A stretch of 64,000 bases of DNA from Bryoerythrophyllum caledonicum (taxonomy: Eukaryota; Streptophyta; Bryopsida; Pottiales; Pottiaceae), in NCBI GenBank assembly GCA_963971425.1, contig OZ020518.1, positions 18,232,990 to 18,296,989 on the forward strand, in the 5' to 3' direction. The translations under genes and the position numbers were made by a program. Within the stretch, counting starts at the first letter, position 1; every line of letters begins with the position of its first letter. Under the pieces are notes generated by a model that was given only the letters and a program-made list of their open reading frames with translations, did not search any database and was not told the origin of the DNA. Below are positions 14,205-48,980 of this stretch, piece after piece.

Positions 14205-15673
14205 ACTGCTGGCCACCCACTAAACATGGCTGCACAGTTTGATAATTCATAACTAATTCAGTTTTCATCGAAAAAATATGAAATCACTTGGGTTGGAATT
14301 GTAATTCTATTGGCTAACACTGAAAAATGATAGAATAATTATGTCCTCTCTCTATATATGCACATTCCTTAACTTGTCGGTTTTAGGGGGGCTTACCTTA
14401 AATGTGACAAAACCAAATGCTTTTATTTTTATCCTTATTCATCTATTTTTATTCAAATTTTTTTTTGGTGCGGATATACATTGTCTCCGTCAGGGAAACT
14501 TGATCAGCTAAACTTGGGCGAGTGTGAAGAAATTATGACTTGACTAGAACCAAAGACAGTTTGGATGTAACAAGATGTAGCAAAGCACAGCGGATCACAT
14601 CACAGAGACAAACTCGGGTAGCAAACATGCCCTGGGACATGTAAAGTTCACGACTTACAGCTGTAATTCCATAATCCTAGTGTACTTAGAGTTGGGTGCC
14701 AACATCTGCACAGCACTGCCTGCAGCAGGCACACAATTTACATGTGAAGATTCAACAGCAAACGTCAACTCAACAATTATGTCTACATGACAGATTAATC
14801 ATATCTTGTGCTAAAGCCCTTTATATGATGTGAATATATAATTGGTTCGGTTGAAATTGGTTAGGTTGTATTGATGTACCCTGGCTACCACTAATCAACT
14901 TAAAGTGAGAGTAGGTGCTGGCACAGGTGGTGGATGAGTGTTCCATACCAGATGACTTGAAACTGACTCTCTTGAAAGAAATTAAAGTTAGGGTGAAACA
15001 GTTTGTGCGTAAAGGAGATGGTGCCTAATTTCGTGAACCCTGATGTTTACCGACAGCATTTTAGACATGGCACAGGTGGTTCCTCAACTAAGCATGCCAT
15101 CATAACACGCAACAGACAGATCAACTGCAGCATCCGTCAGCCAGAGCTCTAACATGTGCAGTAATTAATTCCATTTTCGTTGTGCTCCCATGTACTGTAC
15201 ACAACAGGAGCACTACACTGTTCACCTTGTAGTCGGGATGCATTATTGATGTGGATCCTCTTCACATCCATGTCAAGTTTGGATTGGGTATCCATTTTCA
15301 AGCAAGTATGTGCCAGTCGAAGATTGCACATGTAAATTTTCCAATTAGTGTAGAACCTTGAACAACTTTGGTGCCATGCAATAGGCATGAATCATGAATC
15401 AGATGTAATACGATGTGACGTTTCCACAAGTACTGTGTTTACCTCTAGAAATCAGTGTACAAAGAACCAACACCTTGCTAACCATGACAACCGTTAAAAT
15501 TCAAACTTTGCCTAATGCAAATATTTGAATTATGCCAAGTCAAGTTCTCATGTTGACCCTCACAGTGCAAGTAGAGAAAAAACTTGGAGATCGGGCTAGT
15601 ATCCAGTGCACCAGAAGCTAACTACTGTAGCGGATACTGCCCATATGCCTCCTCTCGGAGCTAGACTAGAAGG
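14205..15673. other. intergenic stretch downstream of the GST gene
   Basis: No exon or repeat was recognised. Its right end should include the 3' untranslated region of the minus-strand GST gene. Confidence 0.35.
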
Positions 15674-16588
15674 CTAGCACAAGGGCTGTGCAGCATCCCA
15701 GTTGAGCTGCAAGCACTTGCGGAACCCCGGGCGTGCGGTGATGCGCGCCGCGTACGCCGCCATGCGAGGCCGCGGCGCCAGCACCTCCGCCCGGTGCAGC
15801 ATCACCTGCCACAGGTATGGCGTGTGCATCACGTCCGCAAGCGTGAACTCGTTGCCCGTCAGGTACAGCTGCTGCTCCATGGAGCCCCCTAGATGGGCCT
15901 CGTACGCGTCCAGCACCGTGCACAGCTCGGCCGTGCACGTCGCCAGGAGCGCCTCGTCCCTGGCGCGGCCCGCGGCTGCGGAGACGTAGATCTCCTTCAT
16001 CAAAAGCTTCAACGGTGGGTATAGGTTGTGCGCCTCCGACTCCACCCACTGGTTGATCGCCGCCCGCTCCCTCAGCGTCCTGCCCAGGAGCGCGCCCATC
16101 TCGTACTTCTCCGCGATGTACCTGGCTATGGCTCGCGACTCTGGAAGCCAAAGCGTCACATGAGTAGATCTAGAAAAGATGATTGGCTTTGGTATGGGTT
16201 GTGACGGTCTTACCGAAGATGGCGACGTCGCCATCCTCGAAGTATGGGATATGGGCGAAAGGCTGCAGAAACAAGAGGGTCGTGATGAGAGGAATGGAAA
16301 CCAGGCCTGATTTGCTGCAGGAATGAGCTAGCGAGTGGATTCATTACCTGCTTCGCTTTATAGGTGGGGTGCTGATTGTCGTTAGTGAATAAGCTCACCT
16401 TCACGAGCTCCAGCTCTTTCTCAGTGTCCACCTACAAACAAGTGCAAGGTTTTGATGAGTGACTAGAGCAAGAAATCAGTTGATTCCAAGGAGCGTTTAG
16501 TGATCCGACGTACCTCAGTCTCGAAGAGCGGGAGAATAGCACGCTGCACATTGAAGATGTTCTGCATGCCGTATAACTTCATCACCAT
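15674..16588 (-). CDS. phi-class glutathione S-transferase, 4 exons, catalytic Ser not conserved
   Basis: Exons on the minus strand are 16588-16514, 16431-16348, 16262-16214 and 16140-15674. They join in frame to 224 residues, the usual phi-class length, with GT-AG sites throughout. The N-terminal thioredoxin-like domain (about 1-80) starts MVMKLYGMQNIFNVQRAIL and has the cis-Pro/glutathione motif region AHIPYFEDGD and ESRAIARYIAEKYE. The all-helical domain follows (GNEFTLADVMH). Family members conjugate glutathione to electrophiles or act as peroxidases in the cytosol. At the position of the phi catalytic serine (after G-x-x-x) an Ile is present and no Ser/Cys is adjacent, so ordinary transferase chemistry is doubtful. 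The start is the first ATG of exon 1. It could be a ligand-binding or peroxidase-type variant. Confidence 0.85.
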
Positions 16589-17226
16589 GGCTGGTTGCGC
16601 TGCCTACCGATGGAGCCAAAAAAGAGACACAAGCTCACTGAGGTTCAAGATTCGCAGAACTAATGCATTGCACTTGAGGTTAAGATGAACCATAAGTAGT
16701 GTAGCTTGGGGAGACAGTCGCGAACGGTGGGTAGAATCCTCATTGAGATCGTACAAAATTCTGCCCCTCCTAAATGAAGGGCAAGATGGATGGCAAGTTT
16801 GAAAACACATTAAAAAGGACGGTGTACGACGGACTCGAGTTTTTGCTCAGAGAGTGCATGGTGAAAGAAAAATGAGTGAGTAATCCTTGACTGCCTCCTC
16901 CGTATGCAGAGTAGGCTAGAGAATCAGCTCAGCAATGACGTATAGCAGCAGATGACCAGTTTTTGTCTGCAATACATGCACGTGATCGGCAGGCCTCCCT
17001 AAAACTTCCTCCGACAGAATACAGCTGCCCAGTCGAAACAATTGAAATCAAACCATAGTGAAAATATACATATATTCGATTGAATAAACAGAAAAATTCA
17101 GAAAGGGCTTCACACCTTGGACAGAATCCCAGATTTTAGGATGAATATGATCAGTCAAAATTGTGTCAATCTTTGTGTCTCCACTATAATCGGCTCGACA
17201 GCATCATTTGTCCTCTAACAAAACTC
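16589..17226. other. spacer between GST start and CCB1 stop
   Basis: The 638 bp between two minus-strand genes should hold the GST promoter and CCB1 3' untranslated region. No specific element was recognised. Confidence 0.4.
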
Positions 17227-20200
17227 TCATTGCTCCAGAATGCCCTTCACGTAAACCATACCCTTCTCCATCAACCCGACTTCTCTGCGCATACGGTTGA
17301 TCTGCTCATCATCTCCCTGCACGGTAACTTCGCTTGAAGATTCATCATCTGCTACTACAATCTTCACCTGAATCTGCTCTGTTCTTGTCGCCTTCCTCCA
17401 ATAATACGCTCCACTGCAACCCAGAAAGACCATTCAAGTTAGATAATGTAGCATCAAATACGGTGATTGTCCGGTCCTGGGCAAATGTACCGCCCGCGTG
17501 TTTTCTTGTGCAGCTGAGAATCTCTGGACCCAGTTCAAAATCTGAAAAGGCTTTAGACTACCAACCGTAAATAGAAAACCATTTACTTTGTTTGACAGAA
17601 AAAAGGTTATCTCAGACGATTGTTTCCATATCATATTGTCTCCAGCAATGTCAATCAAAACAGGAGATGAATGTCCTCTATTCACAATCAGATGATTTTA
17701 TTTTTCTCTGACATCAGCTGTTTCACAATTGGTGGAAATTTCAATGGCTAACCATAAAGATAGAGAGTGTAGAGAAGGGGGTAAAGTGAGGCCATACGCG
17801 AGGGGGCTGAGCAGAGCGATGTAGTATGCGTTTGATCCAATGTCTTGATTGGCAATCGAGAGGACGAGACCAGCACTGCCTAAGCTAACGAACGTGCAGA
17901 AAGTCAGAAAAGCTGCTTGACCTCGGCTGGCAGTCATTACTCCTTCGAACCTGCATTAAACAAGGCATTTCACCTCAAATTGCGTAACAGTGAAACTGAT
18001 TCAGAGGATTCTATCTCTGTAGTGCTGGCCTGGACCAGATTAAGTGACGTGTCATCGAACCATTGGATGAGAGAGATGACATTATGGCATGATAGAGGGC
18101 TGTCCTCCAATTTTTCACTTTGCTGAATTTTACCACATAAGACAAACTAAGCTCCGCAAATTTTCAATTCAAATTATTACAGAACAGAATTGGATTTATA
18201 TTTCGAATGGAAACTTTGAATTCAAAATTTGAAGTTTTGTACAGAAGTGAGGCTCAACGCCTTAAAACCTGGTTGATTCCATCCAGGAAAGCTTGCTGCA
18301 ACCTACACTTTGTCACTACTCTAATCATTTTTCAACTCTATTATCAAAACACCGCTCCTGAGTTGTTAACACCGCTCCAAAAAATATGTAAACTGATTCA
18401 AAAAATATGAACAAGTAACTGCACCCATCATATACCAAACTGCTCAGCCTTGTCCTCCATGGATATCGCCAGACCCTCCAATCCCGCCTTGGAAAACAGG
18501 TTCAGCAATACTTGTCGCTCCTTGCGAAGATGCTACACGTGAAAGACTTGTAAGAAAATCACCAATAGAAACAGTTGGATCATAGTTGATCCCTCCAATG
18601 TTGAAAAAGTACTGGATTGGACCAGAGAAATGATAGTTTTGATCTACACGACTAGCTTGAGGTTGTTCATTCAACGCACGAACACTGCTACTACGCAACA
18701 CACCTTCACTGCTAACGGCAGGAACACACTTCTGCGGAAGCATATTACCACTCAGTACAGGTGCGCTTAAGACCGCAAGAACACTAGGGGAAACACATGA
18801 TGACAGAAGAGGACGTGATTGAACATTTGATGCAATAGGAGACTCAAAAGGCTGAGGAATCTGAGGAGCATTCGGCTCAGGAATCCAAGGAGCGTTCGGT
18901 TGAGGTATCCAAGGAGCATTCGGCTGAGCAACCATGATATCTGTGGGAGCAGCTGCAACATTGTCCACACCATTTAAATCGTCAGAAAAACAAGCTAAAA
19001 TACTCTCACAATCCCAACCAGCCTTTGCACAAGTTGACTCTCTCTTAATCTGCTCATACATCAAAGCAGTTTCACTCTCTTTTCTCTTTCTATAATCTCC
19101 ACTAGATACAGGGAAAGAACAACTAGACTTAAAAGGCTGAACACAAGCAAGATCTTTAGATTTTTTTTGCATACCGTTAAGAATAGTTGTATTCTCAAAA
19201 GAATGAGAACTCAAAATCCGTTTCTTCTGTGCTATAATGAGGTTTCTCTCAGATCTAGAAAGACGATTCTTACTAGTAGAAGCAGCAAGGTTAGAGCACT
19301 GGATAGGAGACCTATCAGGAGAGTCCAGAGGATTCTTGGAAGACAAGTGTGACCTCAAAGGAAAATGGGAATCTAATTGATCCCACCGCTCATTAACCGG
19401 ATCTCCAGGACATACGACAAGATGATCACCACTATCAAACGGACATTTATCAAAATGCCGAGCAGGATTGGATTTGAACAACGAGGCAGCAACAGAATCA
19501 GAAAAATCTATGCCACAACTTTCTTCTGAAAGGGAAGTAGTTTGACTCTGACTTAAGCAATTGTTGAACAACTGAGACAGGTTTAGAATGATACTACCAC
19601 CTTGCCGAAATCCATTTTTCCTTCTCCAGAAATCCATATTCTGAGCAAGAATATCTTGATAGGGTACACCTACATTCTGATGAGAAGCTTGTTGCACCGA
19701 AATGTGCCTCACAATCGTTGTACGATGGTAACGCTTCAGGCTCTTCGGATTTTTGTGGCCGGTTACAGTAACTATTACTTCCTCAGGAACTCCGCTAGCA
19801 ATCATACGAGAAATAGCCGTGGATCTACAAGACTTGTTGGTATAATCACCACGCAAAGCAACTCGCGTAGCCATAGAGGCTACATATGTGGACAAAACGG
19901 CCTTGGAAACATTCACATTTTGCTTATACCAAGTCATACCAACAGGATTAGAAATCGGCTGCAGGAATATGTGACTATTTTTCCCAACAGGCGGCATGTG
20001 AGCCATCAAGGCCTGATAACAAGCAACTACATCAGGATTATTGGAGTAACACGGCTCTCGAAAATCCTCCTGTTGCGTAAGCCGTAAATCCACGTGGTTA
20101 TTCTTGGAATCTGTTTCCACGTATCTACAAAAACATCAAGGCAACAAGCTCAAAGTAAATATACTATTCTAAATTAAGATCTGACATCAAAATTTAAGAT

Positions 20201-22624
20201 ATGAGCATCTAACTGAATTGAAAAAATTAGAATAAAAAAACACAAGAAAGCTTACCGAATTGTTGGAACATTATTAACAACCACTTCAGAAAATTGTCCG
20301 ACCTCCAGCTTGTGCAGTTCACCTTGACCACAGACAATGAACTCACTACAGCAAAAATACGCCCAACGCTTTTGCAATCCAAAGTGATGGTGGATTGAAT
20401 GCTCCGGATGATCAAGAATGAGACGTTCTTCGAATACAGAGAATATATCTACCTTTCTCCTTGGCAGATTACCTTGCTCTTTCACTGAATTCCGCATTGC
20501 ATACTCAAAGCAATCTACTGTTCGAGAAAACAATGGATTGATCCGCATATTTAATCGAGGTAAGATAGGTAAACCTGCAGCTAATCTTGAAAGAACTTCA
20601 GATCGTTGGTGCTTACGCAAAATACGCTGGCAGGCGTTGAGGAGGTTGTTGATTGAACCTGAAGGATACCTCTGCCCATCCTTCTTCAACAAACACTTAA
20701 AGAAACGAGGCAGCAGATCAGTACCAAGCTCCTCCCAAGTGTACATAAACACTGAGGGATGCAAAGGAGTATGATTAATGTGTCCAAGAAATTCGTTAAA
20801 ACGATTTTGGAACCACTTATCATTTGCGACAGACGCTGCGCTCTCAACATCTTCATCGTCAATTCCTGTGTCAGGGAGGAATGATGGTGTCGACGGGAAA
20901 ATAGAAGAAAGAGGTTCGGCGAACACATCTACAACATTAGAAGGATCTGGAGCACCACTCGATATCCCCAACATCAACGCTGAATCGTGAGAATTTTGAA
21001 AAGTCAGACACTTCTTAGATCGTCGCTTCTTTGCAGGCGGGCTGAAGCCTAAGCTAAAACTAGGCGACTCCATCACTAAAAACTGCAGAAAACAAAATCT
21101 TCCAAGCAAACGTACCATCGTGATTCAAAAAAGCATTGAAAAATGCTACAAGCTCAAGTGAATCACTCCGGCAGTAAGTACACTGAAATGCAACAACTAG
21201 AAAGACATATAAGAAACTAAAAGCTAGAGATTGAAACTCCCTATTTATAATCGTAGAAGCCAATAGTTTGAATTTAAATTCAAAACACAAGCACATGCAT
21301 TGCACGCTCCCGCCCATGTTCTTCACATCTGCACAAGTAAAACAGAAGAAACAATGCTGGGAATACAGCTTAGGAGATTGATAATGACGACTTGAGCACC
21401 AGACCATAAACCCCGCCAACATTTCAAGCATGCAGAGAATGCTGGGAATACAGCTTAGGAGATTGATAATGACGACTTGAGCGCCAGACCATAAACCCCG
21501 CCAACATTTCAAGCATGCAGAGAATGCTGGGAATACAACTTAGAAGATTGATAATGACGACTTAAGCGCCAGACATAAACCCCGCCAACATTTCAAGCAT
21601 GCAGAGCAGGCAAATGACATTCAACTTTGAGTAGGAATGCAATCACTTACATATCTAACCAAAACGCAAGCACAACCACGCTGAAAATAAATCTCAACCA
21701 TCAAAACTAGATCTAGATCTGCAAGTACAACAACATTGACAAAACTCAACCAGGAAAGGCAAAAATAACAAGAAAGACCGACACAAGTTGTGCACACAAG
21801 TGATACAGAAACCCTAACAAGAGACTCGTATATACAAACTATGCATGCCACATTGAAAATCTCAACCGTCCATTGAGATTGCAGCCCATGATTCCATCTC
21901 AGCCATCGATTGGAAATCTAGTTAATCTCAACCGTAGAACGTGATGATGACATTCCAGAATCGGACGAGAGGTGAGAAATCATCACCGCCAACATTAGTC
22001 AAATTACACCAACATGTCATAGTAAATCAAATCTTGGTAAAGTTTCTCCAATGACACGTGGTGCGATATTACAGGCTAGCACTACGATAGATAATGACGA
22101 TTTGAGTGAGCACTACCTCCCGGTAGTGCTCACTCAAATCGTCATTATCTATCTCAATCCCTACCGTACATGAACAGACGTCTCTTGAAAAGAAATAATT
22201 CACGGTCCACTTAAAGCCCTGCCGGTCGTTCGTTTTCTTCCGTAAATATTGGTCCGAATCTATTCGTGGGATGCTATTCAAGATGATCAACTATTCTTAC
22301 AAAGAGGTAGAAACAAGGATGTCTCAAATTTATACCAAAAAGGCTAGGAACATGTGTCTCTCTTCCTTACATTTTTTGAACGGGAAAGAGCAATTTTCCC
22401 GTAGATAAGACCTAAAGATAGGACGGAATTTCGATCGCCCCTCAAAGATTTCTATCGCAAGAAATCTAGAGAGGGATACACTTACGTGACAACATCGCTT
22501 CTGTCCTTCACTTGGAAATTGTTGCGAGTGAAAAAAGAAGTGATCTTTGCTGCTATTTGCTTCGGTGATTTCCCTCCAGCTGTTGAGCCTGGCACGTTAA
22601 AAGTTTTCTTCAAAAGATATCGCA
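17227..22624 (-). CDS. CCB1: CCB1, cytochrome b6f cofactor assembly factor, C-terminal exons only
   Basis: Three minus-strand exons, 22624-22486, 17950-17798 and 17413-17227, join in frame at GT-AG sites. They match the C-terminal 60 percent of plant CCB1: SPKQIAAKITSFFTRNNFQV, then FEGVMTASRGQAAFLTF with a hydrophobic membrane pair around IALLSPLAGAYYW, then VTVQGDDEQINRMRREVG and MEKGMVYVKGILEQ. CCB1 is a thylakoid membrane protein of the CCB pathway that attaches heme cn to cytochrome b6. The intron 22485-17951 is 4.5 kb and contains a recombinase gene. Upstream of 22624 a LINE begins, and the transit peptide and first part of the protein were not found up to the TPLATE gene. So this is either a 5'-truncated pseudogene or a gene whose first exons are displaced. 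Confidence 0.8.
18444..21073 (-). CDS. Crypton/DUF3504-type tyrosine recombinase, one intron
   Basis: Exon 1 is 21073-20256 and exon 2 is 20124-18444. The 131-bp intron has donor CG/GTAAGC and acceptor TTTTTGTAG/ATAC, and the join is in frame, giving 832 residues without a break. Near the N terminus is a nuclear-localisation-like PPAKKRRSKK. An N-terminal core-binding domain follows (about 85-180, ending NACQRILRKHQ). The catalytic domain runs from about 200 to 410: candidate Arg236 (FGLQKRW), then TNKSCRSTAISRMIASGV with Arg373, TGHKNPKSLKRYHR with His396 and Tyr405. In the H-x-x-R motif the first residue is Lys370 instead of His. The rest (about 420-832) is low-complexity with a repeated QPNAPWIP unit and a terminal FSGPIQYFFNIGGI motif. 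Such enzymes cut and rejoin DNA through the tyrosine. The start MESPSF was preferred over an upstream in-frame Met at 21118. It lies in a CCB1 intron in the same orientation. Confidence 0.85.
20125..20255 (-). other. intron of the recombinase gene
   Basis: GTAAGC donor and TTTTTGTAG acceptor. The frame is kept across the junction (Arg codon split CG/A). Confidence 0.8.
21353..21606. repeat. three tandem 85-bp repeats upstream of the recombinase
   Basis: Units 21353-21437, 21438-21522 and 21523-21606 each contain AATGCTGGGAATACA, GATAATGACGACTTGAG and CCCCGCCAACATTTC. The first two differ at one or two bases; the third is more diverged. They lie about 280 bp upstream of the recombinase start codon. 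Confidence 0.9.
22086..22153. repeat. perfect 32-bp inverted repeat with 4-nt loop
   Basis: The left arm 22086-22117 and right arm 22122-22153 are exact complements, with loop TCCC. The arm contains GATAATGACGATTTGAG, one base different from the word in the three tandem repeats. It could be a recombinase site, a hairpin of a transposon end, or a hairpin RNA. Confidence 0.9.
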
Positions 22625-22689: not shown

Positions 22690-24865
22690 TAAAAAAGCCA
22701 TCTCAAAATTCAGACAACTATACCAAACTAGCCCTAAGTAAACAAATAGAAAAGTCTTTAAAAAACTAGAAACTCCACCTCTAGATTGTATCACCGATCA
22801 ATATAATAACATTCTAACTAGCCCGGAAGACATTGCAAACGAAATATACAACCAACAAACAAAAATAAATAGACCCACAGTACCAACATGCAACTATCAA
22901 CCACAACACTCAGTCGAATGCACATGTGCAGTACGTCAATACCCATGGCATGACCTCGATGGATTTATTTTAGACAAACAAGGTGAAACCGAAATTCCAT
23001 TACACACATACTTCAATAGAACTATATATGACACATGTCTCCACAACCTCGGAAACAACAAAGCCCCAGGGCCAGACAACATACCAAATTCCATACTCAA
23101 ACACATGCCCCCAAGATATAATAAATTAATATTTCTATTCTTTTCTCATTGCTATAAACAAAAACAAATACCAGCCTCATGGAAAACAAGTGCAACAATC
23201 TTACTATACAAAAAAGGTGACCCCTCCATTCTACCAAACCATAGACCAATTGCACTAGCCAATACAACATATAAACTCTTCACCAGTACACTCACCTATA
23301 TACTATCCTCATACGGAGAAAAATTCAAAATTCTACACGATAGCCAAGAAGGATTTAGAGCAGAAAGAAGTACCTCTAGACAAATACAAACAATAATAGC
23401 TGCACTAGAAGACGCAAAATTCACAAACCAAGACATATATGTATTATATGTCGACTTCAAAAATGCATTTGGATCTATAGACCACGCCCGGCTATTAGCA
23501 ATAATGACTGATGTTGGATACCCTAAAGATGCAACTACACTAGTTGGAAATATATATACTCACAATCATCTACTTACTACACATGAGAGCATTTTGGAAA
23601 AACTAAGTCCATCCCCATCCATAGAGGCACTATACAAGGAGACACCCTCAGCCCATACCTATTCATAATATTCCTAGAGCCACTACTTAGATGGCTAGAA
23701 CGAGGCAACTATGGATATACGTTTGGTACATCACAAATTACCATAAACTCCGCTGCATATGCCGATGACCTTGCTATTATAACTAACAAAATAAAATCTC
23801 TACAAACACAAATCGATAAAATCGATAGATACTGTAAATGGACTGGTATGGACATAGGCGTCCCAAAATGCGTTGCTACTGGATGCCCAAACAAATCCAA
23901 AATGAACCCAATCACATTTAAAGCCCTAATGCAAGCCTCTAACATTAATTACCATGGTCAACAAATCCCCATACTACACCAAAATGAAGCATATGTATAC
24001 CTAGACTATTGCAATTCAACATGCTATGTCGATACTCCTACATAAACGTAAACTTGAAAACAACCAACCCCTACCCGACGCTTCAAACCCCCCTTTATAG
24101 ATCTACAACCGCATTTGCATTTCACCGCACTTGCCCTCCCTCTTTTAGGACTTTTCGGAGCCTAGGGCCCTTTTTTTTTTTTTTTTTTTTTTTTTTCTGG
24201 TTACTGGTTACTGGGTACATAGTGTCCACCCTCGGAAGGGGGAAGTAGTTCCATACTACTAACCCATGCCCGGTGGGCATGGACTTAGTGGTGGAATGAA
24301 CGGGCACTTCACTCACGCCGGTCCCCTTCGGGGACCAGCGTTCTTCTTCTTCTTTATGTATACCTAGGCATAAACTTGGTCCCCTCTCTAAAATGGAAAA
24401 TCCAAACTCACACTACAACCACAAAACTCATTAAACAATGTAATGAATTAACAACATGCCCGGCCACTATGAAACAAAAAATTAAAATGGTTGACACCGT
24501 AATACGCCCAGGAGTAGCATACAACTTTTACGCAGTACCATACTCCATGCGAGCCATTAAAAAACTTGACCAAAAAATTAAAGCCATACAAAAAACCATA
24601 TGCGGAATGCCCAAATGCATGCCAAACGCAATAACCCAACTCCCACACAACCTATTTGGACTTGAAGCTTTCTCCCTAAAAAATGCCTATCTACGATGTA
24701 TTGGGGAATAACTACAAAACGCCCTAAATGACAAAGGTAGGCTCGGGAAAATATGTAATGGGCTCACTCATTATGTTCTTGCTCAATACGGTGGTGCCGA
24801 CAATATACCTAGAATTAAAAAAACGGATTGCATAAGATCACCAATAACACGCACACTCTTCTTAG
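22690..24865 (+). pseudogene. LINE reverse transcriptase region
   Basis: Motifs in order are NNKAPGPDNIPNSILK (about 23055), WKTSATILLYKKGDPSILPN (about 23178), SQEGFRAERST (about 23343), LYVDFKNAFGSIDHA (about 23440), GDTLSPYLFIIF (about 23640, in another frame) and YADDLAII with the catalytic Asp pair (23758). The thumb region continues after the nested insert at 24368 (NLVPSLKWKIQTH) to about 24860. The frame changes near 23630 and stops occur, so the enzyme is not intact. Confidence 0.85.
24005..24354 (+). mobile_element. nested 5'-truncated LINE copy
   Basis: It is flanked by exact 13-bp duplications TATGTATACCTAG (23992-24004 and 24355-24367). Its first about 95 bp resemble the 3' end of the same LINE ORF (compare 28540-28625: CTACATAAACG, GAAAACAACCAA, CCCCCCTT). 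A variable stretch with 26 T's (24171-24196) follows, then the conserved tail with (TTC)n. It is a recent insertion into an older copy of its own family. Confidence 0.85.
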
Positions 24866-25392: not shown

Positions 25393-27010
25393 TTAAAACA
25401 CGTAGCTAAAGCTCACCTTAAAAGCACACTTCCAAAGTTCCTTTTTAACTCTACACCATTAGAAACATCATGGAAACAAGAAGCACAAAACCATAACACA
25501 CTTAACGACCAACTATCTCAAAAACTTCTACACAAACTCCTCTCAAAAAACATTTTCGAACTAAAACAAATTACCCTACCAAATGGCACACACATCATGA
25601 ATAATGAGGACTTCAAAACCTTCCACTTCACTCCATCTAAACTATTCAAAAGCGCCCTAAAGATGGACAAACAATTGTTTTGCCATCCAACATGCCCCAC
25701 AACATGTGATACCACCTACAACATACATCCATACTCCTACACACTCCAGGACCCATTCATTACCACCAACAACAACCTCCTCCCAAGAACTACCCTATCA
25801 CCAATACACCCCCCAAACCCCATATATCCATACCACCCTCGCCCCCCAACATATATCACCAAAAATCCCACCACAAACCCCATCAATAACATCTTACAAC
25901 ATAAACATATACAACATATAGATATTAACAGAATACAAAATAACTACACAAAATACCTATGCCAATGGCAACACAACAACAATACATTCAATAAATGGCT
26001 TCCACAAAGAAACCTCTTCCCAAGACACGACCACAACACTTCCACAAATAACACCAAAAAGCTAAAACAATATTACCAAAGAATCCAAAATAAATTCTAC
26101 TTGGAGATAATTCAAACCCACCACCCTCAAGAACAACTACAAGACTCTAGATCTGTGACTCCACCTATAATCATCCCACTCCTAAACATCTACACAACGG
26201 AATGTAATCCCGAAAAAGTTATTATCTCAATTCCAAACACAATCAAAATAGAGAACGATCAAGCCCATCTATATGAAGCAAATGGCCAACATTTTCACAC
26301 TATTCCCACTACTAGACTCCAATGGCTATGGAACCAATACAACATGAAACTACAAACTCCTACAAACATTGAACCAGCAACCCAACCATTTGAAACCGAA
26401 TTAATTTGGCTATATCAAAGATATAAATACCGCATTCCAAAAAATAACCCCCTCAAAAGCGCACAATACACAATACCCACACTTATTCTAGATTCACTAA
26501 TCTCATCCTTTAACATAGAACAATCATACTTCTCCTCTCCCGTCACATGCTCCACCAAATTAAAAAAATTCTACTCACACTTTGAAAGAGATAAAATATT
26601 TGGCTCCTTGGGTAAGGCCTTTGACTATAAATGGGCCGGTATGGATATGGCTCACCCCCACAATGAAGAGGAAACACAACAAGCAATACACTAGGCCCGT
26701 CTTGCTACTAAAAATGACCCGCAACACATATCTACACTCATTATCACACTAGACAAAAATTGGTATCAAAACTTTAATCCACAAGCAAGTCCATTTGCAG
26801 ACTCCCATATAATTGCTACATTTGAGGCAGGCACAATTACATACGAAGAACCTACTATCCCACCTAAACTAAAAAAGCCCAGAACTGAACCATCTACATT
26901 ACAAGTAATATGCGTCCACCAAAACCAGACCCTTGGCACCCTAGCACAACTTGCAGAACTCACCACCATAGCAAAAACCCTTAACATAAACCGACCACAC
27001 ACAAAGTTGG
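25393..27010 (+). pseudogene. LINE spacer with adenine-methyltransferase-like segment
   Basis: This region of about 540 residues between the RT thumb and RNase H is open from 25393 to 26692, and after one stop continues to about 27010. It holds a Cys/His cluster FCHPTCPTTCD (about 25677) and a Pro/Thr/Asn-rich stretch. Then comes SHFERDKIFGSLGKAF, W-A-G-M-D-M-A-H-P-H-N-E-E, IHxARLATKN, LIITLDKNWYQN and ATFEAGTITY (about 26575-26850). The spacing recalls bacteriophage-type and PCIF1-type adenine methyltransferases (FGSLGxAF, WxGxxxxNPPF/Y, LPxxxxxxWF). The NPPF/Y position here reads AHPHN, so the catalytic motif looks lost or different. The match is from memory of the family and is tentative. 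Confidence 0.45.
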
Positions 27011-28230
27011 CCACACCCACACCTATACCAACACCTGTGAACAAAAACAGAAAATGGTCGTACCTAAATTACAACAACAACACACTAGATTATAGTTTAC
27101 CACCCCCACCCCTCCCAGACTTCCAAACTATTACCTCACCAAAATTTGACCCCGTATACAGCTACTATACCGATGGATCCTTCAAACCACCAGAACAGAT
27201 TAGCCCAGGCAATTGGCGTAGGGAAAAAGCAGAATATGGAATATTCAACCCTATTAAAGAAATCAAATTAGCCAAAAGATTGCATGGATTACAAAATATC
27301 CTTAGAGCAGAACTAATGGCTATACATAAAACACTAGAAATCGTCTCAACAAAATACAACAATGAACTGGTACACATATTTACAGATTGCATTAGCGCAC
27401 TGTACTTATTAAACACCCAAATAACACATCCTACCTCCCATAATAGTCACCCCGACCAAATCATACTAGAATCAATGGTCCAAATGATACTAAAACGAGG
27501 ACAAATCACAACCTTCCACAAAATCCGAGCCCATGCTAATATTAATGGCAATGAACAAGCGGATAAACTTGCAAAAGAAGGAAGAGAAAAATCACATAAA
27601 AATGCCAAAGACCCACATGAACACGCCCACGCCACCCCTTACTATTTCCAAAAAGAAGATTGACCCTCCAAAGAAGACACCCCCGATTAAGGCCCGGTTA
27701 GATTCCTGAGCAAATACCTCAAAAAACAAGACTTCTATAACAATCTTGACACAATCACAGACAACTTTCCTAACATAGAAAAATGGACTAACAACAATGA
27801 CATAGACAATGAACTCTCTACAAATTTTTGGAAAAACCCCATCATCACCGATTCACAAATAACATGCATTATCAAATTCCGTACCGGTCAATACATGGGA
27901 AACGCCCGTAAACAACTCTTCTTTGGAATTGAAAGATTTCCATCCATAACATGCCCCATATGCCCCTCTACGGACCCCGATACATGGCTACATGTTTTAC
28001 TCAAATGCCAAAACCACCACATACACTCCCTAATTGTTAAAAGACATAACAAAGCGGTATGGGAAATTCGAAAACTAATTACCTCTTACAATAAATCGAG
28101 ATGTTTTAGACTAATGAACGCCGACACTTTTAATAACAATGCACAAGAAAATACAGTCCCCCCCTGGCTACTCCCATGTTCTTGTATGACCCAAAGATGT
28201 CATTGCAACGCTAGGCTCAAACCGACATCC
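27011..28230 (+). pseudogene. LINE RNase H and CCHC-like finger
   Basis: RNase H motifs are YYTDGSF (about 27166), NILRAELMAIHKTLE (about 27297), IFTDCISALYLL (about 27377) and HANINGNEQADKLAKEG (about 27533), which supply the DEDD acidic residues. After a stop at 27661 and a frame change, a zinc-binding C-P-I-C...H...C...H pattern follows (CPICPSTDPDTWLHVLLKC, about 27954). RNase H in plant LINEs is known; the order here is normal for I-like and related clades. Confidence 0.8.
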
Positions 28231-46810: not shown

Positions 46811-47950
46811 TCAGTGACAAAACTGCTCCTGGGCAGAGTCCTGGTTGTAGAACTGGGTCGTCCCGCGCGCGGTCTGCCAACTGGTTTGCGCTTGGGAGGA
46901 AGCAGACGGCGAAGCGGCGTGCATCGTCGAGGGCGACGGGTAGCTGTGGTACACTGCGCAGTTCAGGTCGAATGGGCGCGCCCCGGCGTTCGTCGACATC
47001 ATCGCGGTGGAGCTGGCTCCTGGCGACATGAAGCGAGGATCGTAGGCGTTTCCCAGCCTCTCCAGCGTCTGTCACATCACAAAGGGCATGTCAGGACGGA
47101 GCTGCCTAACGCGTCTGGTGCCACAAGAGTTTCTACGAGTGGGTGGTGGAAGGGGACCTGGAGCTGGTGCTGCAAGAACTTGACATACTGGATGGCTTCG
47201 TCAAGCATGGACGCGGTGTCCATTTTCGTGCCTCCCGGCACGAAGTGCTGCAACACGCGGACGCGATCGCTGATGCGCTCGCGGCGGTGGCGCGCGGCCA
47301 CGCTCTGCGGGTCTTTGGAGATTCTCACATTCCGGCGCTTGGGCCGCGACTGGGCGATCTCCTCCAGGCTGGGGACGGTCGGCAGCGTGAGCGGCGCCGG
47401 GAAGATGATCCCGGGGGCGGCGGCTGGCGCGGCCGCGACATTGGCGCCGCCCCGCAGGAATGGGGCGGAGCCCGCCATGGTGACGAAGGGCGCGACGAAC
47501 CCGACGCTGGGCTGGATGTCGTCGAACGGGCGCTTGCTCCCCGACGTCGGCCTCGGAGACATCCCGAGCTGCAGCGCGGCGGGCGACAGCGGCCCGCGGG
47601 GGCTGTCTGCCTCCATGCCCAAATCCACCCTGTGATCCAGCACGCTCAGTACCGACGGAACTAGCCGCGATGACGTGTGCTCGGAGGTGATCTCATCTTC
47701 GTTGCTGGATGAGCCCACCATGCTCGAGCTCCCGGTCCGCACCAGCACCTCCGCGTCTGGATTCTCCTTGCAGAGCTCCAGAGTGTCCAGCTTCAGAAAC
47801 GGGTGCCCCTCTTCCTTGTGCAACGTCGGAATCGCGAACAGGGAATCCGCGGTGGCCGTGGTAGTGGACGCTTGCGTGACGTCGTAGAACACCGCCGCCG
47901 TGCTCGCACTGACTCCGTGGTGCCCCGCCCACTCTGACTCCGCATTTAAC
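46811..47950 (-). CDS. bHLH transcription factor, HECATE/INDEHISCENT type (subfamily VIIIb)
   Basis: Exon 47950-47158 and exon 47068-46811 join in frame at GT-AG sites, with stop at 46811-46813. The bHLH domain lies near the end of the first exon: [20 protein letters not shown], then [20 protein letters not shown] and [19 protein letters not shown], continuing [10 protein letters not shown] in the next exon. The basic region H-x-x-x-R-x-R pattern (ARHRRER) predicts E-box/G-box binding. The [19 protein letters not shown] signature is that of HEC/IND proteins, nuclear regulators of developmental patterning. The N-terminal 200 residues are low-complexity with a [15 protein letters not shown] stretch. 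An AG acceptor at 47951 suggests an upstream exon that I could not place, so the start codon is unknown. Confidence 0.85.
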
Positions 47951-48980
47951 CTGGCACCAAAAATAAGTTTAAAAAAACCGCCAGTTAACCACCCGGCCGC
48001 ACGCACCACACAATGGCCGCAAGCTCCTCCTTCATGCAACAAATGCATGCAAACAACCCGACACAGACACGTACAAACTAGCCAGAAACCATCAACACTG
48101 CTAGTCCGCCCAGTACCACCTCCACAAAATTCACAAACCACTCCACGTACCAATTCTCCATCGATGGGATAACGTCGTTGCAGTCATGTCCTCCGAGACT
48201 CATCGAAACAAAACAATTCAAAACGTCCCTGCGCCAGCGAAGAGCAAATCCGCGTGCAAATCACAAGCGCAAGCCACTGAAGCATGCACGAGGAGTAATC
48301 ACAGGAGCAAGTGGGGGGTGCGAGATGAAGCAAGCTCATGACCTCGATATGGGCGCAATCGCGCAATCTGGGCCATCGGATGGACCAGCGCGCTAGGATC
48401 TAGCGTGGCAGCTACAGTACCACGGCGAGTCTAGCGTTCGCGGGAGGGAACGCGAGTCGCATGCACGGAGCGAGGGTCAACAGGAAGGAGGAGAGTTCGG
48501 GGCCCGGGCGATGAAGAACTCCGAACTCTAGTAGGTATCTATTCTCGGGGTGCGCGACGTTGGAGGGCCAGGTGCAATAGCAACCTACTTCACGTGATCG
48601 GGTACGCCGCCTGGCCTATTACGGCCCCTCTCACCAAAATTCCACACCCCAAGACGAATCCCACTCCAGCGTTGGGCCCGACTCCCCGAGCACTGCCGGA
48701 CTGCACTTCGCACTCTCCACCCGCGCATTGCGCCATGCCACTGCATGCCAAAGCGTCTCCTCTGCGAACCAACCTCATGATCTTGTGCAAAAAAACAAAA
48801 CCAGAAAACTATAAATTAAAGAAAAAGGAAGAAGGAGAAGAAGAACCAACCTTATGAAATAATAAAATTTAAAATTTAAAATTAAAAGAAAAAAGAAGAT
48901 GAAGAAGAAGAACCAACCTCATGAGGCGAACAAGACGAGCATCACCGCTCCAAGGTTCAATCGTATTTCAGTCCTACTAC
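47951..48980. other. bHLH upstream region
   Basis: GC-rich sequence upstream of the bHLH gene; it probably contains the promoter and the unlocated first exon. A GAAGAAGAAG-rich tract begins near 48815. Confidence 0.4.

Follow-up and report, generated by a model that had tools for sequence, protein, structure and literature searches.

Cryptons have been reported from fungi, animals and stramenopiles and are divided into the groups F, S, A and I, with a Chlamydomonas entry also standing in the published tree. According to the portions of that account considered here (PMC3212892), their ends carry either short terminal direct repeats, in the fungal and stramenopile groups F and S, or no terminal repeats, in the animal groups A and I; their catalytic residues are given as R-H-R-Y, and a QRICH1 domain together with DUF3504 is tied to the animal Cryptons. 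In the open-access literature, no described Crypton from a land plant or streptophyte stood among the matches listed, and Repbase and subscription papers lay outside this search, so the novelty of the present case is provisional.

Integron cassettes form a second system for comparison, in which the attC palindrome lies almost wholly on one side after insertion. In attC sites, which are imperfect palindromes, the bottom strand folds and is then recombined; unpaired bases and like features govern the choice of strand and replication resolves the junction, as set out in the part of PMC8946536 that was covered. The strand-biased circularizing elements (SEs) of Vibrio are reported to circularize one specific strand, in the covered text of PMC9345347. 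Within the green plant lineage, the consulted sections of PMC3537659 give the ALOG domain from streptophytes only and state that complete DIRS1-class elements were then not known from streptophytes.

The locus described here lies in a stretch of 64,000 nucleotides from Bryoerythrophyllum caledonicum (contig OZ020518.1; hereafter the window), and the genome was searched as 437 Mb in 894 contigs. The genome is that of a streptophyte, with the ALOG domain in two genes, in line with the plant-like genome proposed by an earlier, sequence-only reading of the window. The window element belongs to a multicopy family in which the recombinase is the sole long gene, copies sit between a T and a purine with zero target duplication, and the sequence of the 3' terminus recurs, inverted, directly behind a long palindrome found at the 5' end only.

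The recombinase gene and its catalytic residues

The gene lies on the minus strand and, as predicted from the sequence, consists of exon 1 (20256..21073; 272 codons and 2 nt), a 131-bp GT...AG intron (20125..20255) and exon 2 (18444..20124), which holds Lys280, the KxxR box, the GH motif and the Tyr nucleophile and has a long C-terminal tail. Joined in frame, the exons of the window copy leave 832 codons and a stop open, and the GT and AG of the intron are kept in all five other copies of its family (family A) that span it, which bears out the two-exon, 832-residue model of the sequence-only reading. Family B carries an intron at the same phase-2 position, and the family-C copy C9 reads continuously there, with no intron.

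On its own, the window protein matched the Pfam family Phage_integrase weakly over residues 341-407 (E 0.0013, 19-20.5 bits against a cut-off of 27.1). The same family matched all four aligned members (A-D), above the curated cut-off in B (28.8 bits) and C (28.2 bits) and below it in D (20.1 bits) and the window protein, and the integrase profile phrog_1 also matched four of four. The A-D alignment shows no variation in SKN, NKS, the box-II Arg, TGH and RY. With relatives above the cut-off, the identity that was weak for the window protein alone is settled, and the earlier assignment, put to the profile search, held: judged from profiles and alignment, the window protein and its relatives are tyrosine recombinases. 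Searches of PDB sequences gave nothing useful, a predicted structure of a 174-residue exon-2 piece had a mean pLDDT of 37.9, and pattern searches of viral and prokaryote contigs yielded 19 and 42 pattern matches, none of them a confirmed relative.

The aligned residues are taken by us to be the catalytic positions of the superfamily, on general knowledge together with PMC3212892. K280, K370-x-x-R373, H396 and Y405 are all present in the window protein, the segment from Lys370-x-x-Arg373 through Gly-His396 to Tyr405 being placed by the family alignment at 19728..19835 (minus strand). The KxxR, GH and Y of the R...(K)xxR...GH...Y pattern read earlier thus stand, but comparison of copies shows that its first R does not, since codon 248 (20330..20332, minus strand) is TGT and encodes Cys. 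At this position Arg is found in C10a, C10b, C8 and C1a and His in C1b, so that it is kept in four of the five comparable other family-A copies (C6b has no sequence there), and Arg also stands in the aligned members of B, C and D. The change to Cys248 is a C to T, and 14 of the 21 private substitutions of the window copy, counted where at least three other copies have sequence and all of these are the same, are C>T or G>A. Loss of the first catalytic Arg should presumably abolish recombinase activity; the window copy, in which it is lost, looks catalytically dead as far as its sequence tells. Because this residue is lost, the description of the gene as whole finds no support if it is meant as working.

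The further label of a DUF3504-type gene is weak. DUF3504 gave no match in the window protein up to E = 10 and matched one of the four family members, that of family B, at 19.8 bits, below the curated cut-off of 29.7. A search of the genome with the DUF3504 profile found nothing and is uninformative because 14 control genomes were equally silent. Five families were listed for the window protein at E values up to 10, HMMER filters dropping most matches above 0.1, and GCR1_C, the DNA-binding domain of CryptonF, was absent from them. The position of HxxR reads KxxR in all four aligned families, which, with the first Arg lost in the window copy, departs from the R-H-R-Y of Cryptons. Family B shows a QRICH1-domain match (16 bits, cut-off 30.8), then DUF3504, then the integrase match, the first two weak; this similarity to the QRICH1 domain and DUF3504 of animal Cryptons is weak and collinear.

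Copies of the element and its empty sites

Matches to the exons formed 52 clusters in the genome (15-kb grouping), seven belonging to family A and 45 others of weaker similarity, the latter including marginal matches up to E 1e-3; such a search gives lower bounds. Family A comprises eight loci: six retain much of the gene, C6b is internally deleted, and C9:2.87 Mb holds a 3' fragment. These eight loci answer the question of copy number, by which the sequence-only reading would tell a mobile family, in favor of mobility. C10a and C10b are 97.9% and 94.1% identical with the window copy, both over 18019-22156, and the flanks of the copies, where compared, have no match with those of the window copy except short repeats. 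The similarity starts and stops at the limits of a 4,137-bp element at 18019..22155 (minus strand), at which an empty site also places them. The gene first read at 18444-21073 is real, but the feature is larger, being this whole mobile element. In gene orientation it starts GAGATAGATAATGACG and finishes CCAGGCCAGCACTAC, and the recombinase exons are its only open stretches longer than 166 residues.

The empty site lies at C6:17.64 Mb, where the sequence joins 18018 directly to 22156. That locus duplicates the flanks of the window copy with 99.3% identity over 2,399 bp and 98.9% over 466 bp, and the joined flanks match C6:17642640-17642960 over their full length at 99%. The empty locus reads GGGATT followed at once by AGAGATAG, and the window reads GGGATT, the element and AGAGATAG, with zero bases duplicated or lost. 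The recent duplicate corresponds to window positions 15621-18018 and 22156-22612, and a glutathione S-transferase-like frame lies inside the duplicated flank at 15674-16234. With a 97.9% identical copy elsewhere and an empty site in a duplicate whose flank is 99.3% identical, the element is both mobile and recent, as the earlier suggestion of recent activity had it.

Among the other insertions, C10b has a clean empty site against two paralogous loci (T^G). Compared with three paralogues, C10a is four bases longer at the junction or close to it, which could reflect older variation or an imprecise event. The empty site of C9 is clean, four paralogous loci aligning with each other across it and one of them matching the far side of C9 directly (90% over 219 bp); one of the four has C, not T, before the site, and the C9 boundary is ambiguous by one T on both sides, so that a 1-bp duplication is possible there. 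No target duplication was thus seen in the three clean cases of the four examined. The flanks of family B yielded no paralogue across the site. Ends and targets share no direct repeat or overlap at the clean empty sites, apart from GAGATAGA in the right flank of the window copy, which resembles the 5' end of the element and has no counterpart in the right flanks of the other copies; this likeness appears chance-like. A DDE transposon with terminal inverted repeats was considered and rejected, as the clean empty sites carry no target duplication.

A T precedes the 5' end in 10/10 intact 5' ends examined, four from A (window, C10a, C10b, C1b), two from B (B1, B2) and four from C (C9, C9b and two ends on C6 and C11); the count excludes C6b, which breaks off within the palindrome, C8 and C1a, which have lost their 5' ends, and some partial family-C matches. 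A purine follows the 3' end in all eight cases examined (seven A loci and C9).

That the gene might instead be a host-domesticated recombinase under selection is suggested by the open frame of the window copy and by some purifying signal between copies (dN/dS 0.45-0.67 over 15 pairs). A single conserved host locus is at odds with the eight A loci and the empty site in the 99.3% identical duplicate, and the dispersed copies carry stops and indels: counted codon by codon on the window frame, there is one stop in C10a, three in C10b, eight in C8, five in C1a and three in C1b, and several family-A copies have indels. Five of the six copies with much of the gene therefore contain stops and the sixth, the window copy, is without the first Arg; in addition, other DNA of about 9.5 kb interrupts C1a, and C1b is without its 3' part. 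Domestication, which the sequence-only reading had left open along with selection, is considered highly improbable and was rejected.

Retroelement sequence occurs nearby, with a reverse transcriptase frame at 23105-23668 and an RNase H frame at 27007-27663, beyond the 5' end of the transposon, and a frame with a bHLH DNA-binding domain lies farther off in the window at 47077-48153. Since DIRS/Ngaro-type retrotransposons also use a tyrosine recombinase, and these two frames begin about 1 kb and 5 kb beyond the element, a remnant of such a retrotransposon was considered. Both frames lie beyond the limit that the empty site sets for the element, C10a and C10b run collinear with it along the whole 4.1 kb and contain neither frame, and none of the copies examined was a longer one enclosing a reverse transcriptase between these ends. 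A DIRS remnant was rejected as scarcely credible, the reverse transcriptase lying outside the element, and the two frames apparently belong to a separate retroelement.

The one-sided palindrome and the predicted fold of the ends

The element begins with a 70-bp palindrome (22086..22155, minus strand) made of 32-bp perfect arms, a 4-base loop and two outer bases on the cut side (left). Directly inside it lies a 14-bp subterminal half-site (22072..22085, minus strand), which inverts the 3' terminus exactly in C10a and C10b and with a single mismatch in the window copy, and the 3' terminus itself, delimited by comparison of copies, is a 14-bp half-site at 18019..18032 (minus strand). The 5' leader contains an 85-bp unit three times in tandem (21353..21606, minus strand); each unit includes a near copy of the palindrome-arm motif and is possibly an extra, putative recombinase-binding site. 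The palindrome stands at the 5' end of the gene in all ten intact 5' ends and at none of the eight 3' ends examined. A genome search with the 5' end, in which very common words were skipped, found five family-A loci and no match outside them; a separate repeat that the element had hit was rejected as an origin of the palindrome, its genome matches lying at family-A loci only.

In C1b the palindrome contains an inserted small repeat, and two more bases in its right arm remove the 2-nt bulge. The small repeat (CACTAAAGATG..., apparently duplicating TA) lies at L021 6974-7268, and seemingly the same CACTAAAGATG... repeat is present at L036 near 8920, the apparent end of the family-C similarity.

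Comparable ends recur in diverged relatives. Family C, with about 35% protein identity, is the second family with the complete end architecture: its copy C9, a 4,211-bp element, starts GTACTAGGTAATGG, continues with an imperfect palindrome of about 140-150 bp and then ATAGCCGGTT, and has the 3' end AACCGGCTAT. It holds a 489-residue open frame, running from stop to stop and not from a start codon, with all catalytic residues in place (L031 4261-5727). The 3' ends of C9b and L036 were not located, so complete family-C ends come from C9 as a single copy. Family B, 35% identical to the window protein over the core, has the same kind of 5' palindrome, and no matching 3' end was found for it; in family D one of three loci has a palindrome, of 50 bp. 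The succession of half-site, palindrome and half-site is accordingly complete in two families only, one of them known from that single copy. A distant recombinase relative shows no comparable palindrome within 3.6 kb; it occurs on C6 as inverted copies (L052 and L053) about 30 kb apart and 100% identical over 3,597 bp, a pair that may be a very recent duplication or an assembly artefact. Palindromes as strong or stronger exist elsewhere, in the window at 2660-2874 and in L036, so that a palindrome alone is not diagnostic and only its position at the end is telling. The one at 2660-2874 spans 215 bp, is about 82% self-complementary and is tied to no gene.

When the ends are joined, with the 3' half-site placed before the 5' end, they fold into one hairpin in family A (-50.6 kcal/mol, z -18.3) and in C9 (-64.1 kcal/mol, z -13.0). 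Seven junctions were folded, three from A and four from C, three of the latter with the half-site of C9, which stood in for 3' ends that had not been located in those copies. Counting from the cut, +3 is the earliest unpaired position of the cut strand in 7/7, and the opposite strand has no unpaired bases in five of the seven and some in two; the placement of the bulge in family A is degenerate, and C1b, which lacks it, stood outside the folded set. The ends therefore have the features of an attC-type site, an imperfect, folding palindrome that sits at one side of the insert and leaves bases of one strand unpaired, with C1b as a copy without the bulge.

Helitrons leave no target duplication, carry a one-sided hairpin and insert next to a fixed base. 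The zero target duplication, the one-sided hairpin and the insertion beside a fixed base seen here would suit a rolling-circle (HUH/Helitron-like) element that carries the recombinase gene as a passenger. This is judged improbable, as no stretches other than the recombinase exons are open over more than 166 residues, the families with this kind of 5' end share the recombinase, and the Pfam scan listings contain the integrase and no HUH or helicase family.

An ordinary double-strand, circle-based transposition by a tyrosine recombinase, as proposed for Cryptons, would need only the short half-sites at the ends to act, with the palindrome serving as a normal binding site or in replication or regulation. 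In the covered part of PMC3212892, the usual recombinase site is a pair of inverted arms separated by a short spacer; the center of the palindrome resembles such a two-arm site, and the arm motifs recur in the internal 85-bp repeats. The crossover, by contrast, falls at the outer edge of the palindrome, about 34 bp from the loop, the clean empty sites share no overlap sequence outside the GAGATAGA case, and the palindrome is always on one side. This explanation, the main rival, is regarded as a possible one, somewhat short of an even chance.

Proposed movement and relation to known systems

The one-sided palindrome and the lack of target duplication suggest that movement may resemble that of bacterial integron cassettes. 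The window element is interpreted as a young copy, probably inactive by now, of a DNA transposon that encodes a tyrosine recombinase and moves through an attC-like folded strand, a reading to which we give about an even chance. For this route, the element would leave as a circle or a single strand, and its joined ends would form one hairpin of half-site, palindrome and half-site. The recombinase would bind the folded stem and cut one strand at the palindrome base, the cut strand would be joined to a T^purine target, and replication would complete the join. The folded joined end would then be the substrate and only one strand would be exchanged; under this proposal, the one-strand join followed by replication leaves the whole palindrome on one side and duplicates nothing.

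Like Cryptons, this is a small DNA element with essentially one tyrosine recombinase and no reverse transcriptase. It departs from them in having a palindrome at one terminus only, inverted half-sites and no direct repeat in common, and in its host, a streptophyte. Because its ends, compared with the published Crypton description, differ from those in the covered part of PMC3212892, it is filed as a Crypton-like tyrosine-recombinase transposon; Crypton membership, as claimed by the sequence-only reading, is not established. With integron attC sites the element shares a tyrosine recombinase and an imperfect palindrome with unpaired bases, as well as the palindrome lying almost wholly on one side after insertion. 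It differs from integron cassettes in being eukaryotic and self-encoding and in having no attI platform, and single-strand use is in its case inferred. SEs resemble it as tyrosine-recombinase elements with inverted repeats at the ends and with reported one-strand processing, but they are bacterial, have two recombinases and a 6-bp putative crossover region, and show no terminal palindrome in the covered text of PMC9345347. In common with the DIRS-type and ALOG cases described in the consulted sections of PMC3537659, it concerns a mobile-element tyrosine recombinase in the streptophyte lineage; unlike DIRS-type elements, it is without a reverse transcriptase.

The insertion mode of eukaryotic tyrosine-recombinase DNA transposons is largely unproven. 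A definite mechanism is testable in this genome, where copies are young, empty sites are exact and the same asymmetric ends recur in two diverged families. Tentatively, tyrosine-recombinase transposons with folded single-strand sites might constitute a eukaryotic class, an independent or ancient counterpart of integron cassettes, that diversified in at least one plant lineage, and such elements would be placed in the streptophyte lineage.
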